From Armatimonadota bacterium (GTDB lineage Bacteria; Armatimonadota; Hebobacteria; CAIYQO01), in NCBI GenBank assembly GCA_029553475.1, contig JAKPKV010000096.1:1-54308 (forward strand): a stretch of DNA of 54,308 nt, written 5' to 3'. The position numbers and the translations under genes were made by a program. The notes beneath the pieces were generated by a model. The model was not told the origin of the DNA, did not search any database, and was given only the letters and a program-made list of their open reading frames with translations. Within the stretch, counting starts at the first letter, position 1. Each line of letters opens with the position of its first letter. Positions 8,041 through 54,308 of the stretch are shown one piece after another.

Positions 8041-8135
8041 ACCCCCCACCCCCCTTCCCTGACAGGGAAGGGGGAGTGATGGGTGCGCAGATCCGGTGCT
8101 CCCCTCCCCGCTCAGGGGAGGGGCGGGGGGAGAGG
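8041..8135. repeat. Two adjacent G/C-tract palindromes, copy 2 of the dispersed repeat
   Basis: Two perfect hairpins lie 26 nt apart: an 11 bp stem with a 3 nt loop (8050-8060 with 8064-8074) and a 9 bp stem with a 5 nt loop (8101-8109 with 8115-8123). Their CCCCTTCCC and CCCCTCCCC arms match the elements at 3298-3338 and 48397-48448. They sit in the intergenic region ahead of the first riboswitch promoter, consistent with a dispersed intergenic repeat. Confidence 0.5.
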
Positions 8136-45063: not shown

Positions 45064-48000
45064 CTATGTCCACTCGATAATCGTATACATCGGATAGAGC
45101 GGGGTCCACTCGGTTTCCCACCAGATGTGGTAGCGATGGGTGATATTGCTGATGAAGGTGGGGTGGCCGCGATGGGCGCGGAAGAGGTGCTCTTCGGGTG
45201 ACTGCCACCGATGCCAGGCGTAGGGGGCGCCGGAGTGCCACCGCAGCGTGCGCGCCTCCGCGTCGATAGTGATGCCCAGGTAATGGCACACGGGGGACGC
45301 GGACTGGACGATGGGCGTCAGGTATTGCAGCAAGGCGGTGTTCTGCACTTCAGTGGCGGGGCTGACCAGCGTGCCGCCTTGCCAACGGCAGAAGGCTATC
45401 GCTTCCTGCCGGGGCAGCCGTATCGGCAACGACAGATAGGCGCGCTCCCCCATCGCCGCCGCAACGGGGCGCAACGCGTACCGGTGATCCAGGGGGATGC
45501 TCGGGTTGTTGCGCCAGGCTGTGAGCGCGGCATACGCCGTCGGCGCGACGCGCAGCACATGGTCCCGTACATGCGCGTTGACGATGTGCAGCGTGGGATG
45601 GGCAGCGATCAGCGCCAACATCGCCTCATCCAAACAGTCGGCTCCCAATTCACGCAGCGGCAAGGCGGCCAACGCCTCCCCATTCGCGGGGGTGAGGGGA
45701 ATCGTCCCGATGCCCAGGATGGCGAGGGGCAGGTGAGCGAGCGGGGTGAGATCGGTGATGGGATTTCCTTCACAGTACAGGCAGGATAACGGCATGGCGG
45801 CCAGCGGGCGCAGGTCGGTGAGGCGATTCATCCCGCACGCGAATTCGCGCAAGGCAAGGTGGGCGATCCCCCGCAAATCGGTGATCCGGGTGGCGGTGCA
45901 GTAGAGCACCTGGAGGGTGGCCGGCAACGGGGTGAAGTCGCTGATGGGATTCAGCGTGCAATCCAACCGCTCCAGCGGCGACGCCGCCAATGCCCGCACC
46001 TCCTGGATCTGATTCTCCGCGCAAGACAGCACGGTCAACGGCGCCCCGGCCAGCGGGGAGAGATCGCGCACCAGGTTGCCGCTGCAATTGAGCGCCTGCA
46101 ACGGCATCCCCCGCAGGGGCGTGAGATGCTCGATACGGTTATCATTACAGGTTAACGTGGTCAGCGGCATGCCGGCCAGCGGGGAGAGATCGGTGATGGC
46201 GTTGCGCGCCACGCTGCACGCGGTGAGCGACATCCCGGCCAGCGGGGTCAACGCGGTCAACTGGTTGTTATCGCACGTCAGATTGGTCAGCGGCATGTCG
46301 GCTACCGGGGAGAGGTCATCGATATACCCCGGCCAACAGGCCAGGTGCGTTAAGCGCATGCCGCGCAAGTCTTCCAGGCTGACCAGGGGCGCATCGCTGA
46401 GCTGCAACAAGGTTAATGGCAGCGCGGCGAGACAGGTGAGCACCGGGGCTTGCGCTTCACGGCCGACGGTTTTCACCACGGAAACCAGGGAATTCGCCAG
46501 GTGCTGGACCAGCCCGGCATCCGGCGTGAGCGCTTGCAGTTGTACGGCGCTCTCGACGGCCCCGGCAAAATCACCACGACGCAACCGCAGCAAGGCGTGT
46601 TCCCGTAACGCGCGCGTGCGAAAAGGATTCTCGCTGTCGCTTGTCACCCGTTGCAACGCCGCATCCTTCACCGCCTCCTCAGTATCCGGCGTTGCCAGCG
46701 CCACCAGGTAGGCCGCTTCATGCTGGAGGCTAGCTTCCTGATGTTCCTCCGCGATGCGCTGAAACCAGCGGAGGGCGTCCTCACGATGGCCGTGCCGCAG
46801 CAGTACGCGCCCCGGCTCCAGGATATCGACATAGCGCGGGCTGCGGCGCGACCAGAGGTGCACACTGTCGATCAACGCATCCCCGAGAACCCCGTAGCGT
46901 CCGAGGCCGATGGTGCGGTGGGTCGCCCCCTGGGCGGCAAAGGGCTCCTCGTAGGTCATGATGCGTTCGCCGTTCACCTCGGCGTAGAAGACGTTGTCCG
47001 CGCGCCAGAGCACAAAGGTGTAAGCATCCGCCCGGGCATCGAGGGTGAACGCGCACCGCTGCAGCATTTCCCAATAACCATGCTGGATCGTTTCGAGGTC
47101 GATCTGGTGATACCCGTCGATGCGCAACCGATACCCGGTTTGCAGGTCACCCGAGATGGCGATGGCCAGATTGGGACCGTCCGGCGGCGTGTTCCGCACC
47201 TGCACGACGATTTTCACTTCCTCATCCACCGCGTGCCGGTAGCGCAAAGCCGTCCAGGATTGGGCGTTCCGCACGCGCAGGCGCATGGCGCCTTCCGCCA
47301 CCTCCGCCAGTTCCGGCGCCGGAATGAGCTGCAGGGGATTCGGTTCGAAGTCATAATAATAACACACTTCCCAATCGGTCTCGGCGCTCGTCGCGGTGGA
47401 GTAATCCAGATGCCGCACCGGCGACCAGCCTTCCCGCGTCCAGCGGGCGAATTCCGCCGACCGGCGTTCCTCGACCAGGCGCCGGCGCGCTTCATCCCCG
47501 CTCATCCCTTTGCGCATCGCCCGCGGGTTGACGCCGAAATACTCGGAGAACGCCTTGGAGAAGTTGGGGTAATTGTCATAGCCCACACGGCGGGCGACTT
47601 CCTGGATCGAAAGATTTTGATTGTTCAGCAAAAACCGCGCATGCTCCAGGCGCACCCGTCTCAGGTACTCCATGGGAGTCATATCGAAGTACCGTTTATA
47701 CAGGCGGGAGAAGTGCGGCTGCGAGAGGCTCATGCGCTCGACGAGCATCTCCAGGGTAATCGGTTCGACAAAATGCTCATCCAGATATTGCTTCAACGCC
47801 AGCCAGGGGCCGGGCATCCGCTGATCGGTTTGCGGGTGGCGGATGGCGCGCCCCACCCGCAGACACCAGAGGGTGAAGAGATGCCGAATAATGTCCGGTT
47901 CCGGCGCACCGCCGGCGCATTCGTGCCGGATCTCCTGGAAGAACGCCTCACAGTCGACCGCGTCCCCCAAGGGCAGCAGCGTATTGGTGGGCAGGTGGGC

Positions 48001-48315
48001 GTCCTTGAGCTGCGCTTCGACCAAGGGGCCGGTGCAGTGGAGCCAGGAGTAATCCCACCCCCCGCCGGTATTGCCATAGTAGTGCCGGTACCTGGGTTCC
48101 CAAATCACCAGGCTGGAGGGGCCGGCACGGTGCTCAATGCCCTGCAGCCGCACCGCCACCTCGAAATGGAAGACGGTGAAGAGGAACCCCGCCATGCCCA
48201 GGGGACGATGGATGATGCCCGCCGGATTGGCCTCATGGATCCCCACCCCTAACAATTGCCACTCCGCCTCCGCAAGCAGCGGCGTATCAGGGAGATAAAC
48301 GGCGCTGTGTTTCAT
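45064..48315 (-). CDS. AraC-family regulator fused to lamin-G-like, LRR and C-type-lectin-like regions
   Basis: A 1083-residue multidomain protein. About 10-150: cupin-like sensor domain of AraC regulators. 170-270: two helix-turn-helix motifs (LEMLVERMSLSQPHFSRLYK; LSIQEVARRVGYDNYPNFSK), a complete AraC DNA-binding domain. 315-490: beta-rich concanavalin-like region (TGYRLRIDGY, ADNVFYAEVNGERIMTYEEP). 500-610: TPR-like helices. 630-890: about ten leucine-rich repeats of PLTxLxCxxNxIxDLxPLAGM type. 955-1083: C-type-lectin-like (LPRQEAIAFCRWQGGTLVSP, HYLGITID, RWHSGAPYAWHRWQSPEEH). No signal peptide or membrane helix, so all parts should be cytoplasmic. It is divergent from the prepilin gene. 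The start at 48315 fits the sensor domain; its ligand and targets are unknown. Confidence 0.88.
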   Translation of the reverse strand: MKHSAVYLPDTPLLAEAEWQLLGVGIHEANPAGIIHRPLGMAGFLFTVFHFEVAVRLQGIEHRAGPSSLVIWEPRYRHYYGNTGGGWDYSWLHCTGPLVEAQLKDAHLPTNTLLPLGDAVDCEAFFQEIRHECAGGAPEPDIIRHLFTLWCLRVGRAIRHPQTDQRMPGPWLALKQYLDEHFVEPITLEMLVERMSLSQPHFSRLYKRYFDMTPMEYLRRVRLEHARFLLNNQNLSIQEVARRVGYDNYPNFSKAFSEYFGVNPRAMRKGMSGDEARRRLVEERRSAEFARWTREGWSPVRHLDYSTATSAETDWEVCYYYDFEPNPLQLIPAPELAEVAEGAMRLRVRNAQSWTALRYRHAVDEEVKIVVQVRNTPPDGPNLAIAISGDLQTGYRLRIDGYHQIDLETIQHGYWEMLQRCAFTLDARADAYTFVLWRADNVFYAEVNGERIMTYEEPFAAQGATHRTIGLGRYGVLGDALIDSVHLWSRRSPRYVDILEPGRVLLRHGHREDALRWFQRIAEEHQEASLQHEAAYLVALATPDTEEAVKDAALQRVTSDSENPFRTRALREHALLRLRRGDFAGAVESAVQLQALTPDAGLVQHLANSLVSVVKTVGREAQAPVLTCLAALPLTLLQLSDAPLVSLEDLRGMRLTHLACWPGYIDDLSPVADMPLTNLTCDNNQLTALTPLAGMSLTACSVARNAITDLSPLAGMPLTTLTCNDNRIEHLTPLRGMPLQALNCSGNLVRDLSPLAGAPLTVLSCAENQIQEVRALAASPLERLDCTLNPISDFTPLPATLQVLYCTATRITDLRGIAHLALREFACGMNRLTDLRPLAAMPLSCLYCEGNPITDLTPLAHLPLAILGIGTIPLTPANGEALAALPLRELGADCLDEAMLALIAAHPTLHIVNAHVRDHVLRVAPTAYAALTAWRNNPSIPLDHRYALRPVAAAMGERAYLSLPIRLPRQEAIAFCRWQGGTLVSPATEVQNTALLQYLTPIVQSASPVCHYLGITIDAEARTLRWHSGAPYAWHRWQSPEEHLFRAHRGHPTFISNITHRYHIWWETEWTPLYPMYTIIEWT

Positions 48316-48396
48316 GATTGTGCCTTTCGAACATTCCCCCCTGCGGGAGCCCGAACCTCCAGGTGGGCGCTCCCAGCTAGGCCGGCTCACACAGAC

Positions 48397-48448
48397 GGAC
48401 CCCCTCCCCCAACCCCTTCCCCCGCCGCGGCAGGGGAAGGGGAGGGTC
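48397..48448. repeat. G/C-tract palindromic repeat, copy 3
   Basis: CCCCTTCCCC (48413-48422) pairs with GGGGAAGGGG (48433-48442), extended outside by GACCC/GGGTC. The core CCGCGGCAGGGG matches copy 1 at 3298-3338 and the arms match copy 2 at 8041-8135. It lies between the regulator gene and its candidate operator. Confidence 0.5.
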
Positions 48449-48456
48449 ACACACTC

Positions 48457-48524
48457 TCAAAATGATTAGATTTCACAAGAAATCGCATACATTAGGCAAC
48501 TACACGGCTTAAAATGATTATATT
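48457..48524. promoter_or_regulatory. Direct repeats in the regulator/prepilin intergenic region, candidate operator
   Basis: TCAAAATGATTAGATT (48457-48472) and TTAAAATGATTATATT (48509-48524) differ at two positions and start exactly 52 bp apart, five helical turns. Direct repeats of this size are typical AraC-family sites. The second overlaps an AT-rich TATATTGTATAG stretch that could hold the -10 region of the prepilin promoter. Confidence 0.5.
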
Positions 48525-48590
48525 GTATAGGAAGAGAGAGTTCAAGAGGCTTACGAGCCTCGCTGCTCTCCCCAGACGAAAGGAGTTGTT

Positions 48591-49685
48591 ATGTCTCAAA
48601 TCAATCAGCGCAAAGGCTTCACCCTCATTGAACTCCTGGTGGTCATCGCCATCATCGCGATCCTGGCCGCCATCCTCTTTCCGGTCTTCGCCAAAGCGCG
48701 GGATAAGGCGCGCCAGACCACCTGCATGAACAATCAGCGACAGGTGGCGTTGGCGATCCAGATGTATGCGCAGGATCATGAGGAAACGCTGCCGGGCACG
48801 AACTGGTCCCAGGCGATCGCGCTGACAGGCAAAGTGCTGGATTGCCCGGCCACTACCCACAAAGGTACCGCCGGCGAGCCCGATTATTTCTTCGTCGGCG
48901 GTTCGCTGCTGGCCGATCGCGCCGTGGGCGATTTCAGCACGGTTGACGTCACCGAAGTGCCGATGCTCTGCGATCTGGCTTCCGCGGGTAAAACGAACCT
49001 TGGCGCTTCGTATGTCGTGCATGCCGGTCAGTACGTCGTCCCTGCCACGGAAATCAACCCGAAAGTCGATTATCGCCACAATGGCGGCACGCTCGTTGCC
49101 TATCTGGACGGCCATGTAGGCTATACCCCGCAGACGAGTAAAACGACATTGGAAGCGCAATTTCTCAACTGTTTCGGCGATGACGACATCCCGACGGGCA
49201 CGCCGATTACCGTTACCGCCGCGATGCTCTCCACCGACGGCACCCCATATGACGGAATGCCGTTGACGAATTTATTCGACGGCAACCCGTCAACATTCAA
49301 TTACAACACGGGGGGGACACCCGCCGGCAATATTGTGATCAGCGTTGATCTGGGCGCTCCCAAGATTATCACCGAGGCACGGTTTGTCGCGACGAAAAAC
49401 GGTTGGTGGAGCAATGCCGTCGAAGCAGGTTTGGCCTCGAAAGTACTCCTCCAAGGCGCCGCCAGCGCGAGCGGACCGTGGGTAGACCTGGCCTCAAGCG
49501 GCGACTTCACGGCAACGGAAGCGGGAGCCGGCACCTACCATGATGTCAGAGTCAACTCGGGCAATGTGCCGTACCAGTACCTGCGGTACAAATGCAACAA
49601 TCCGAACGGCGTCTCCGGTTACACCGCCGCGTATTGCTGGTACGGCTATATCGGTGATCTCGCAATTTCCGGGGCTAATCCGTAA
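48591..49685 (+). CDS. Prepilin-like secreted protein (H-X9-DG) with discoidin-like C-terminal domain
   Basis: A 364-residue protein with a class III signal: [12 protein letters not shown], prepilin peptidase cleavage after G9, E14 conserved, then a hydrophobic helix to about 33. [22 protein letters not shown] follows, and the H-X9-DG motif lies at H163-G174. Residues about 205-362 form an F5/8 type C (discoidin) domain ([33 protein letters not shown]), a fold that often binds carbohydrates. AAAGGAG precedes the ATG. An intrinsic terminator follows at 49758. It may be displayed by a type II secretion-like pseudopilus and bind glycans. Confidence 0.9.
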
Positions 49686-49845: not shown

Positions 49846-51567
49846 ATGCCGGAATTTCGTCACATTCATCTCGACACTCGTGCCCCTGCATCCGAGGCGA
49901 TGGATGCCATCATCCGTCTACTGTGCCAGCGCATCGAGGAACGCACCGGCATTGTCGTCACCGCCGGCGACGTCCCACATGACTGTAGTGGATTACGTCT
50001 ACACCTGGAATTACGCCCAGGCATTGATCGCGAAGGGTTCGCTATCGAAGGCGACGAGCAAGTGATGCGCATTGCCGGGAGTGAGCCGTGCGGATTGTTG
50101 GCGGGCGTCGGGCATTTCCTGCACACCACCGGCTATGGAGAGGGAACATGCCATCCCGCCCATTGGCGCGGCATCTCCCTGCCCGAGTGCCCGGTGCGGG
50201 GCATCTTCTTTGCGCTGCACAATAACTGGTACGCGCTGGCGCCGCGGGCAGAGATTCATCGCTATATCGAAGACCTGGGGTTGTGGGGCATCAATACCAT
50301 CTGCTTCCACTTTCCGCAATATGAAGACCCCACCACCCCGGAAGCGCGCGCAGCACTGGCGGAATTCCGTGAGTTGCTGCGAGTGGTCAAGCGCCTGGGG
50401 ATGAAAGTGGCGCTGCTCAAGGAGCCGAACATCGGTTTTGTGAATCCGCCGGCCGCCATCCGGGCGGCAATCTTTCCCGACACCATCCCGCCGCGCCGGG
50501 GCACGGGGGGACCGCGTGTGTGCCCCAGCCGGCCGGCCGGCTTTGCCTACCTCTCCCACATGCTGGCGACTTGTCTGGATGGATTTACCGACATCGGTGT
50601 GGACTATATCGTGACTTTTCCCTACGATGCGGGCGGTTGCGGCTGCGCGGACTGCTGGCCGTGGGGGGCGCGCGGCTACCTCACTATCGCCCAAGAATTC
50701 TTCCGCCTGGCACGCGAACGGTATCCGGAATGCAAGCGTGTGCTGGGCACCTGGTGCTTTGATGTGCGTGAGGAATCGGACGGCGAATACCCCGGCCTGG
50801 CGCAGCGATTGGCGCAGGATGACGGCTGGGTTGACTATTTGATGGCCGACTCGCATGAGGATTTCCCGCGCTTCTTGCTGGAGCATGGCGTTCCCGGCAA
50901 TCTGCCCGTGCTCAACTTCGCCGAAATCAGCATGTGGGGCCGCTTCCCCTGGGGCGGGTCCGGCGCCAATCCGCTGCCGGCGCGCTTCCAACGGTTGTGG
51001 GATCAGGCGCAGCACCTGCTGGCGGGCGGTTTCCCGTATTCCGAAGGCAACTTTGAGGATATCAACAAGATTATCTGCAGTCGATTCTACTGGAAGAAGG
51101 ACACCCCGGCGACCGACGCGGTGCGCGCCTACATCGCCTACGAGTTTTCCCCTGTGGTCGTCGAGCTGGTGGCGGAAGCCATCACCCTGCTGGAACGCAC
51201 CTACCCGCATACCGACCGGCAATCTGTGGAGGTGGAGCGGGCGTATGCGTTGATCCAACAGGCCGATACCGTGTTGCCGCCGCGGGCGCGCGCCTCCTGG
51301 CGCTGGCGCATCCTCTACCTGCGCGCGGTGATCGATCATGAACTCATCAATCACGACAACGAACCCACCGACCGTTGCGACGCGGCATACGAGGAGCTCA
51401 TCCGCCTGTACCATGTCGAAAACGGCTGGTTCTGCATCGCCCCACCCTCCCGCGCCTACCTGGCACGCCAGGCAATGGCACGGCGTCAGCATGAAGAGAC
51501 AGCGCCATTGCCACCGGGGGCGGAAGAGGGCATGGTGAAAAACGAGAGCAGGCGCGTGCTAGCCTGA
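49846..51567 (+). CDS. Glycoside-hydrolase-like TIM-barrel protein
   Basis: A 573-residue protein without a signal peptide. The first about 110 residues form an alpha/beta domain like the N-terminal domains of GH20, GH67 or GH115 enzymes (GFAIEGDEQVMRIAG, GLLAGVGHFLH). Residues about 115-420 form a TIM barrel (VRGIFFALHNNWY, WGINTICFHFP). A cysteine cluster, GGCGCADCWPW, lies near 265, and the C-terminus is helical. I cannot assign a family or catalytic residues. An AAGAAAG sequence lies 10 nt before the ATG. The setting with a glycan-type regulator and pectate-lyase-like protein suggests carbohydrate breakdown. Confidence 0.72.
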   Translation: MPEFRHIHLDTRAPASEAMDAIIRLLCQRIEERTGIVVTAGDVPHDCSGLRLHLELRPGIDREGFAIEGDEQVMRIAGSEPCGLLAGVGHFLHTTGYGEGTCHPAHWRGISLPECPVRGIFFALHNNWYALAPRAEIHRYIEDLGLWGINTICFHFPQYEDPTTPEARAALAEFRELLRVVKRLGMKVALLKEPNIGFVNPPAAIRAAIFPDTIPPRRGTGGPRVCPSRPAGFAYLSHMLATCLDGFTDIGVDYIVTFPYDAGGCGCADCWPWGARGYLTIAQEFFRLARERYPECKRVLGTWCFDVREESDGEYPGLAQRLAQDDGWVDYLMADSHEDFPRFLLEHGVPGNLPVLNFAEISMWGRFPWGGSGANPLPARFQRLWDQAQHLLAGGFPYSEGNFEDINKIICSRFYWKKDTPATDAVRAYIAYEFSPVVVELVAEAITLLERTYPHTDRQSVEVERAYALIQQADTVLPPRARASWRWRILYLRAVIDHELINHDNEPTDRCDAAYEELIRLYHVENGWFCIAPPSRAYLARQAMARRQHEETAPLPPGAEEGMVKNESRRVLA

Positions 51568-51734
51568 TTTGGGCACGAGGAGTCTGTCAATGTGAAAAGG
51601 CGTAGGACTCTCAACTCACGGACTGTGGCCCATTCACAATTCATGGGCCAGGAAGTGCATACCCCGACTGTCGCGCACGGCAGGTACCATTGCCGTTTCG
51701 CTCTCATGCTTGCATGGTCACGAAAGGGGATTCG

Positions 51735-54308
51735 GTGGTGACTCAACACGGTATTCCACAGTATCCGGTGTGCAGAACGGCTATTTGTCTCTGGACACTC
51801 CTCGTCTGTTGCCTCGCAGTATACGCGGGGCACATACCGAATTTGGCCTGGACACCGCGTTCGGATTGGATCAATGTGCAATCCGCTCCGTACAACGCCG
51901 TAGGCAACGGCGATCCTGCCAATGCCACTACCGATACCGCGGCCATCCAGGCGGCGCTGAATGCGGTTCCCCAGGGGGGGACGGTCTATTTTCCGGCAGG
52001 GACATATTGCATTAACCAACCGCTCACCCTCACTTGCGGCACGTTACGTTTCGGCGTCAACCTCATCGGCCACGGCAGCGCGACGACGTTACAGTGGTAT
52101 GGGGCCACCGGCGGCACCATCCTGACTATTAACAGTAATCCCTATGCGTGTTACAACGGTCTGACGCTGGATGGCCGGAGCATTGCCGCGAATGGGATTT
52201 TCCATTCGAATACGCTCTGGTTTGAAACGAGTATACGTTATACCAACATGGCGTTTCTCAACTGTACCAACATGGGGGTGGGCACCGATGCCGCCCATGG
52301 CGGCTCCACCGCGACCGCGGAGACCAGTTATGCGAACTGCCGCTTTGAGAATTGTGGCTTCGGCGCCTATATCAGCGGCTTTAATATGTACGACCACACC
52401 TTCGCCGGGTGTGACTTCCTCAACTGCAACGATGGCATCGCCTGTGTCAACGGCAACGTCTACGTCCGCGATTGTTACTTTTACCGGAGTGCTACCTGTG
52501 ATGTGTTTTTGTATCCCTCACACGGCAGCTCCGTGCGACGCTGCGTCTCCAATGGCTCCGCGCAGTTTATCGCTTCCACCTCGCCGAGTGGCGCGCTGGT
52601 GGTGGAAGACTGCTATGTCAGTGGGTGGACCGGCACGGCAGTGACGGTGGACGGCGCCGCGGCCGCCCTCTTCCATAACAACGCCTTTGTCAATCCACCG
52701 AACGGCGCGCCGCCCGTCAAGGCGAAGGTCCCCCGCATACCGGTGATACTGTGCAATAACTCTGCCCCGCAATCCGCCTTCGTAGCCACGGGGACGTCGG
52801 TGATATACACCATACCGGCCGGGCAATATGGGCCGCGCGTGGGCAGCACCGCCAACGGGCCCAACATCACCAGCTTCGTCACGACACATGTGACCGCGCC
52901 TCCCGTGGTCTATGACGCCAAGGTGAACTATGGCGCGTATGGCGACGGCGTCCACGATGACACCACCGCCATTCAGCATTGCATCAACGCCGCTCGCACG
53001 GCGGGCAACGGCGCCATCGCCTACCTGCCCACCGGTACCTATAAAGTGACGTCCACGCTCACCGTCACCGGCAGCAACTACGTGGTCGGCGGTAACGGGT
53101 ACTTTACCCGACTGTACTGGGGCGGCGCGCCCAACGGCACCATGATGCAGGTGACGGATCCCCAGCAGGTGCGGCTGGAGAATATGATGATCGGGCATCA
53201 CGACGCCGGTATCATGCATAACAGCTACGACATCGTGCAAACCAGCACCGGCGCCGTCTCGCATATGACCTATGCCAATGTGTACGTCTTTGGCAAGTAT
53301 CAAGATGCCCCCGACACGAAAGGGCTCTACCTGAATGGCCTGGGCAGCAACTGTAAGGTGCTCATGGATATGGTGGAAGGCAATGTGCGCATCAACAACT
53401 CGGCGGACGCCACCATTCTCGGCAATACCATCTTCGACGGCATCGTCACCGTTGACGACACGACCTCCGCGCGTACGGGTTTTCTCGGATTTATGACACG
53501 CTTGACCACCTGTAGCTTGTTCACCACGTATGTGCGCAACAGTAATAGCCTCGTCATGACGGATTTTTATCAGGAGTCGGACGCCAACGGACTCCACTTA
53601 AGCGGCACACCCGGTAATCCGGCCGGCCGCGTGTCGGTACAATTCTCCAATAACGATTTCGGCAGAAGCGGCACGCCCAGCGGCAATATGGCGCATATCG
53701 CGAACTACAATGGCCAGGTGTTCTATGGCCCCTCGTGTTCGTATTATAACCCCGGCACGCAGGCGATCGTCCAGACGGGGAACGTGCCGGTAGATATCGT
53801 GCTGTATGGCACCGAATTCGTCGGAACCAACTTCGCCTTCTCCGGCGTCTCGGCGACGCTGGCCACCGTTGGCAATACGAACGGGGGATTACAGAACTAT
53901 CCGGTGGATAGCTATACGGCGCAGACACTGGCGAAGCTGTCCAGCGCCCAGGATGATTTCCAGCGCTTGGGGAATGTGGATCTCGAGCTGAATTTCCCCT
54001 CATTGCATGTAACCTCAACGCTGGTCGCCGCTCCGACATTCTCACTGGCACCATGCATGTTCACCTCCCCCAAGTCGGTCACGATCAGCACGACGACCAG
54101 TGGCGCAACTATACGCTATACGACGGATGGCAGTGATCCCAGCCCCACGAACGGCACGGTGTATAGCACCCCTGTGACTATCAGCGCCACCACGACGCTG
54201 AAGGCCATGGCCTCTAAAAGTGGCGCGGGAACGAGCGCCATGACGAGTGGGACGTATACCCTGGTGAGCGGCATCGCGCCGACAGCCTGGTGGAAGTTGG
54301 ATGAACAT
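51735..54308 (+). CDS. Secreted beta-helix (pectate-lyase-like) protein, 3' end beyond the window
   Basis: An open frame of 858 codons starting at GTG (51735, or the next GTG at 51738) with AAAGGGGA upstream, and running off the window. A hydrophobic N-terminal segment (AICLWTLLVCCLAVYAG) is a signal peptide or anchor. Two pectate-lyase-type starts are visible: GDPANATTDTAAIQAALNAV (about residue 60) and GDGVHDDTTAIQHCINAARTAG (about 405), each followed by right-handed beta-helix-like repeats. Near the end is a chitobiase-type domain (ATIRYTTDGSDPSPTNGTVY), then AWWKLDE, the start of a LamG-like domain. Likely a cell-surface polysaccharide-acting protein; no catalytic residues assigned. Confidence 0.88.
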   Translation, partial: MVTQHGIPQYPVCRTAICLWTLLVCCLAVYAGHIPNLAWTPRSDWINVQSAPYNAVGNGDPANATTDTAAIQAALNAVPQGGTVYFPAGTYCINQPLTLTCGTLRFGVNLIGHGSATTLQWYGATGGTILTINSNPYACYNGLTLDGRSIAANGIFHSNTLWFETSIRYTNMAFLNCTNMGVGTDAAHGGSTATAETSYANCRFENCGFGAYISGFNMYDHTFAGCDFLNCNDGIACVNGNVYVRDCYFYRSATCDVFLYPSHGSSVRRCVSNGSAQFIASTSPSGALVVEDCYVSGWTGTAVTVDGAAAALFHNNAFVNPPNGAPPVKAKVPRIPVILCNNSAPQSAFVATGTSVIYTIPAGQYGPRVGSTANGPNITSFVTTHVTAPPVVYDAKVNYGAYGDGVHDDTTAIQHCINAARTAGNGAIAYLPTGTYKVTSTLTVTGSNYVVGGNGYFTRLYWGGAPNGTMMQVTDPQQVRLENMMIGHHDAGIMHNSYDIVQTSTGAVSHMTYANVYVFGKYQDAPDTKGLYLNGLGSNCKVLMDMVEGNVRINNSADATILGNTIFDGIVTVDDTTSARTGFLGFMTRLTTCSLFTTYVRNSNSLVMTDFYQESDANGLHLSGTPGNPAGRVSVQFSNNDFGRSGTPSGNMAHIANYNGQVFYGPSCSYYNPGTQAIVQTGNVPVDIVLYGTEFVGTNFAFSGVSATLATVGNTNGGLQNYPVDSYTAQTLAKLSSAQDDFQRLGNVDLELNFPSLHVTSTLVAAPTFSLAPCMFTSPKSVTISTTTSGATIRYTTDGSDPSPTNGTVYSTPVTISATTTLKAMASKSGAGTSAMTSGTYTLVSGIAPTAWWKLDEH

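Follow-up and report, generated by a model that had tools for sequence, protein, structure and literature searches.

The gene at 45064..48315 raises the question of how a transcriptional regulator of the AraC family comes to carry a long series of receptor-type domains. AraC regulators normally consist of about 250-350 residues, and the protein encoded here has a further 800 after its helix-turn-helix (HTH) part. The gene lies in a stretch of 54,308 nucleotides from an Armatimonadota bacterium (contig JAKPKV010000096.1), the whole of which we call the window. The following parts can be distinguished:

45064..48315, minus strand: whole gene of a 1083-residue AraC regulator with a receptor-type tail (full-length homology to paralogs)
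47971..48279, minus strand: cupin of the AraC ligand-binding/dimerisation type, residues 13-115 (weak Pfam match, Pfam match of the paralog, model, Foldseek)
47509..47811, minus strand: AraC double HTH, residues 169-269 (HTH_18, model helices)
46831..47490, minus strand: junction helix and concanavalin-like (ConA-like) sandwich, residues 276-495, junction at about 276-280 (hhalign, HSP, Foldseek)
46426..46830, minus strand: TPR-like alpha helices, residues 496-630 (eight model helices, aligned to kinase tails)
45703..46425, minus strand: about eleven internalin-type leucine-rich repeats (LRRs) of about 21 residues each, residues 631-871 (LRR_4, structure matches, repeat listing)
45478..45702, minus strand: LRR cap and helical connector, residues 872-946 (models; conserved with the kinase L173)
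45067..45477, minus strand: C-type-lectin-like domain without EPN/QPD/WND, residues 947-1083 (model, Foldseek and VIA-align, motif check)

ORF inspection revealed 1083 uninterrupted codons at 45067-48315 on the minus strand, followed by a stop. The ATG at 48315, preceded by AAAGG, is the natural start of the gene; a GTG start would give a longer frame, but the 45 additional residues have no counterpart in the paralogs. A paralog in the same genome, on another contig (C46), is 52% identical to the window protein over residues 10-1082. Three more copies (C763, C28 and C318) are found in a genus-mate, the public record Armatimonadetes bacterium UR.bin144 (G001). The C763 protein is full length (1091 residues) and 42-43% identical, and the C318 copy ends at the contig end. 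The C28 copy (L027 8700-9710) shows a frame change within the LRR part on a low-coverage draft contig, and either the gene is broken or the assembly is at fault. The preliminary description had named a frameshift or assembly join between the head and the later modules as the finding that would overturn it. That an AraC gene and a receptor-type gene were joined artificially is hardly credible: although the genomes are drafts and C28 has its frame change, such a join is ruled out by full-length copies that occur independently on different contigs and in another assembly, and the divergence between the copies is biased towards third codon positions.

The N-terminal head is that of an AraC protein. 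HTH_18 (E 2e-22) and HTH_AraC (E 6e-15) both score above the Pfam cut-off and identify an AraC/XylS double HTH, with NCBIfam models matching only at and just beside this region. AraC_binding stays below the cut-off in the window protein (20.5 vs 21.1 bits) and exceeds it in the paralog. In the full-chain model, the N-terminal domain forms a beta barrel, and the head was matched by Foldseek to CsvR, ToxT and Rns. A protein kinase domain was not detected in the window protein (no Pkinase match in Pfam).

The full-chain model, computed from ten sequences (pLDDT 78.4, pTM 0.51), shows the cupin barrel and the AraC helices followed by a sandwich (297-490), eight helices (500-630) and the LRRs (636-870). 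Most LRR blocks exceed a pLDDT of 90, and the C-terminus is poorly modelled. The sandwich is matched by VIP36, GH16 and CBM66 in Foldseek, TPR_2 lies below the Pfam cut-off in the window protein (E 0.14), and LRR_4 is well above it (E 6e-18). The closest structures to the LRRs are 4fmz (inlF, Z 31.4), a Roco LRR domain (Z 30.7) and InlA (about Z 30). Almost all LRR units carry a cysteine at the equivalent position (660, 681, 700, 723, 744, 765, 786, 806, 827, 848), similar to the cysteine ladder that PDB 3bz5 (InlJ) names in its title; if the cytoplasm is reducing, their thiols would be free.

Lectin_C is below the Pfam cut-off in the window protein (E 0.089) and above it in the homologous tail of a kinase (E 2e-9). 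Folded alone from 16 sequences, the C-terminal domain reached a pLDDT of 85.3 and a pTM of 0.84, and among the matches listed by Foldseek and VIA-align all were C-type-lectin domains (best match: Z 11.8, 3.1 A, 127 residues). Based on this model and its structural matches, the predicted C-type-lectin fold is confirmed. The weak Pfam calls for cupin, TPR and lectin can be regarded as settled, since relatives and structure models show these domains. Thus, the order proposed earlier, AraC, ConA-like, TPR-like, LRR and C-type-lectin-like, proved right, and the objection that profile searches might find neither an LRR nor a lectin-like fold falls away.

Where does the tail come from? A first scan of genome contigs with a single protein query gave no match. 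When 84,980 species genomes were scanned with a family alignment, the genus-mate was recovered together with LRR relatives that belong mostly to Planctomycetota, Lentisphaerae/Victivallales and Verrucomicrobia (PVC). Several of these relatives are Ser/Thr kinases with a hydrophobic helix behind the kinase domain and, beyond it, the modules of the tail in the same order. By hhalign, the ConA-TPR part matches the PVC kinase tails with a probability of 98.7 and E 1.5e-16, and profile comparison of the lectin part gave a probability of 91 and E 9e-7. The closest of these kinases, a protein of a planctomycetal MAG (L173:1-3255) whose contig starts inside the kinase domain, aligns with residues 280-1033 in a single BLASTP stretch (29% identity, E 4e-87), and its aligned tail is preceded by a kinase C-lobe and a hydrophobic helix (137-155). 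Because this alignment begins just past the AraC HTH, the junction is placed at about residue 276-280, and the fusion lacks the membrane helix of the kinases. A hydropathy scan of the 1083-residue chain found no membrane helix (the highest 19-residue value, 1.56, lies within the LRRs), and no signal peptide was visible by eye at the N-terminus, as the earlier claim of a missing export signal had it.

Within 40 fetched PVC stretches, 43 ORFs carry the tail module; the head is a kinase in 40 of them and an AraC domain in none, and a hydrophobic helix usually precedes the tail. For the extracytoplasmic position of the kinase tails we rely on the hydropathy scan together with predictions published for other planctomycetal kinase parts (PMC11032199). 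That paper describes kinases of Planctomycetota whose TPR and WD40 parts are periplasmic, and its main text makes no mention of LRR or lectin parts; our literature search found no paper on LRR/lectin receptor kinases of Planctomycetota. The PVC genomes G291, G294, G299 and G302 (loci L155-L194) each encode about 6 to 16 proteins with the ConA-TPR module; nearly all are kinases, and they often end in LRR and C-type-lectin parts. These form an expanded receptor-kinase family for which we found no description.

In the tree, the AraC-fused tails form one clade (support 100/99; the four tails having the analysed part were included), with L173 as the nearest row. These comparisons establish the architecture, its conservation in the genus, the homology to the kinase part behind the membrane helix and the grouping of the AraC-fused tails in one clade. 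We infer that the AraC form derives from the kinase form, because the former is confined to a single genus and the latter is widespread. The window protein belongs to the AraC family by its head and, having neither kinase nor membrane helix, is not a receptor kinase despite the homologous tail. The preliminary description knew of no family with this module order. This does not apply to the tail, which is a PVC receptor-kinase ectodomain; the novelty lies in its attachment to an AraC head and, with the membrane helix gone, in its presumed cytoplasmic position.

Among 291 Armatimonadota genomes, full-length or tail matches occurred only in the window genome and the genus-mate. A profile spanning HTH, junction and ConA retrieved only ordinary AraC proteins from 392 Planctomycetota and 388 Verrucomicrobiota genomes; as only the best five candidates per genome were scored, absence of the fusion from these genomes is likely rather than proved. 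No relative was found among viral contigs, PADLOC gave no match to anti-phage defence, and the literature search yielded no paper on AraC proteins with LRR or lectin parts. In a genome of the same family (G002), an AraC protein of ordinary type (290 residues, 36% identity with the head of the window protein) is encoded divergently from a gene that by eye looks like the DUF2961 type. Weak A2 matches in other Armatimonadota turned out, in those opened, to be proteins with TPR arrays or a TPR membrane protein without relation to the family; there are further weak A6 matches. Two long AraC frames, in G580 (841) and G002 (734), were stop-to-stop frames whose AraC genes actually have 301 and 364 residues.

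The restriction to one genus would also suit a tail that is a mere passenger, acquired by recombination and adding bulk while the AraC head alone regulates. We consider this very improbable, since the fusion has been kept in five copies in two genomes and its tail is about as conserved as the head: identity to the window protein is 48-55% in the tail domains and 50% in the head for C46, and 37-46% and 40% for C763, with third codon positions the most diverged in each domain.

The divergent neighbourhood of the regulator includes the following features:

48316..48590, no strand assigned: intergenic region separating the divergently oriented regulator and pseudopilin genes, probable control region (sequence)
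48482..48492, plus strand: ATCGCATACAT, tentative operator element (common to the C46 intergenic region)
48459..48520, plus strand: AAAATGATTA direct repeat, tentative, with copies at 48459 and 48511, 52 bp apart (sequence)
48591..49685, plus strand: divergent pseudopilin-like gene with N-methylation motif and DUF1559, probable target (Pfam/NCBIfam)
49846..51567, plus strand: 573-residue protein, glycosidase-like by eye, in the probable target locus (no Pfam/NCBIfam match)
51690..54308, plus strand: pectate-lyase/rhamnogalacturonase-like beta-helix protein running off the contig (Pect-lyase_RHGA_epim, E 1.5e-21)

In the window, C46 and C763, the regulator is divergent from a pseudopilin-like gene with an N-methylation motif and a DUF1559 start. 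The preliminary description had suggested a search for the architecture beside H-X9-DG prepilin genes; pseudopilin-like genes of this type (DUF1559 / H-X9-DG) lie opposite three copies of the family. In C28, the divergent neighbour encodes a LamG/GH66-like protein. Near C46 there are genes for a sulfatase and a pectate-lyase-like protein, and near C763 FAD-oxidoreductase and URO-D genes. Pairs of a regulator and a DUF1559 pseudopilin recur in the window genome, and adjoining C46, a LacI-type regulator is divergent from another pseudopilin-like gene (L025 7275-8456). The regulated locus most likely serves polysaccharide use.

The gap between regulator and pseudopilin gene contains a sigma-70-like site on the minus strand (48545-48517). 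ATCGCATACAT begins 109 bp upstream of the pseudopilin start in the window and 110 bp upstream of it in C46. Elsewhere in the genome it occurs within open frames, and 4 matches vs 0 for the reversed control is a weak difference, so that ATCGCATACAT alone is not a regulon marker. A GC-rich inverted repeat, CCCCTTCCCC...GGGGAAGGGG, at 48401-48455 in the same gap resembles other short palindromes of the window, near 8043 and 3314 (REP-like element). Comparing the intergenic region with the rest of the window revealed no second operator and only GC-rich matches.

In C763, the gap between regulator and pseudopilin gene contains AAAGTCAATATC and AAAGTCAACATC, 21 bp apart, and on the same contig this pair recurs with equal spacing in the gap between the FAD-oxidoreductase and URO-D genes. 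This second tandem candidate operator is accompanied by an imperfect further site (L026 10340-10700). AAAGTCAANATC has 8 matches in the genus-mate genome and 0 for the reversed control; four of the eight form two 21-bp-spaced pairs on the regulator's 11.7-kb contig, both in divergent gaps. The C46 gap contains AAAGTCAAGATC and a 12-of-16 repeat at 21 bp. Shuffled sequences equalled these spacing repeats in 1 of 300 cases for C763 and 4 of 300 for C46. The tandem half-sites are clear in C763 (two promoter gaps) and partial in C46; in the intergenic region of the window itself, no tandem repeat with 21-bp spacing stands out clearly. C46 and C763 have the half-site in common, as they do the first recognition helix (PQY.CRMFKHYF), and the window protein differs in both. 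For the paralogs, the sequence patterns support half-sites 21 bp apart as expected of a working AraC protein. The C763 regulator probably controls more than its divergent neighbour, because a second copy of the tandem operator lies between the FAD-oxidoreductase and URO-D genes.

How might such a chain work? We regard it as reasonably probable that the protein is a cytoplasmic one-component regulator of the AraC type, whose sensor is the transplanted ectodomain (ConA-like, TPR, LRR and C-type-lectin-like) of a PVC receptor Ser/Thr kinase. The tail would stay in the cytoplasm and bind a ligand, either an imported polysaccharide fragment or a partner protein. Binding would set the dimerisation of the AraC head and the occupancy of the divergent promoter, which in turn would switch the regulator's own gene and the pseudopilin and polysaccharide-degradation genes. 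Judging from the glycosidase-like, pectate-lyase-like and sulfatase neighbours, the chain may plausibly sense a glycan fragment. The folds do not by themselves point to a sugar ligand, because the calcium/sugar motifs EPN/QPD/WND are absent from residues 881-1083 and LRRs often bind proteins.

In the main rival reading, the tail would be an interaction scaffold in which LRR and TPR hold a partner protein, while the cupin alone senses a small molecule as in an ordinary AraC regulator. LRR and TPR folds are protein-binding in most cases, internalin-type LRRs are the best structural matches, the lectin motifs are missing and the cupin is retained. However, two lectin-like folds (ConA-like and C-type) beside polysaccharide-related genes fit ligand binding better, and no partner gene is evident, so that we consider the scaffold unlikely, if still deserving of attention.

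If the tail is indeed the sensor, the fusion is a clear case of the sensing half of a receptor kinase being re-used by a transcription factor after removal of the membrane helix, apparently across a phylum boundary. More tentatively, moving an outside-facing ectodomain inside and wiring it to DNA might allow large polysaccharide or protein ligands to be read by an LRR-lectin receptor without signal passage through the membrane or phosphorylation, with gene duplication then providing copies for different substrates. The fusion also reveals possible attachment partners of the common, little-studied PVC ectodomains and, since the AraC output is a simple promoter readout, offers a soluble, testable route to what these bind.

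Compared with known systems, the individual parts are familiar. The lectin-like domain shares its fold with the C-type lectins PLA2R, collectins and langerin (Z up to 11.8), but lacks EPN/QPD/WND and is predicted to be cytoplasmic. The LRRs have the fold of internalins and Roco LRR domains, without the export signal, wall anchor or Roc-COR GTPase of these proteins. With AraC/XylS regulators (AraC, RhaS and the ToxT/Rns fold), the window protein has the cupin, the double HTH and the divergent placement in common, and its paralogs the 21-bp tandem half-sites; the difference is the 800-residue tail. Long AraC regulators such as Btr of Bacillus, AryK and Rsp also have an extra region after the HTH. 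In Btr this is a solute-binding-protein domain, an outside-type binding domain taken into the cytoplasm, whereas the module captured here is a four-part receptor ectodomain. The PVC Ser/Thr receptor kinases (for example G291:C130, G297:C18, G302:C14, G291:C181) have the same tail domains in the same order, but in place of their kinase and membrane helix the window protein has a cupin and an AraC HTH.
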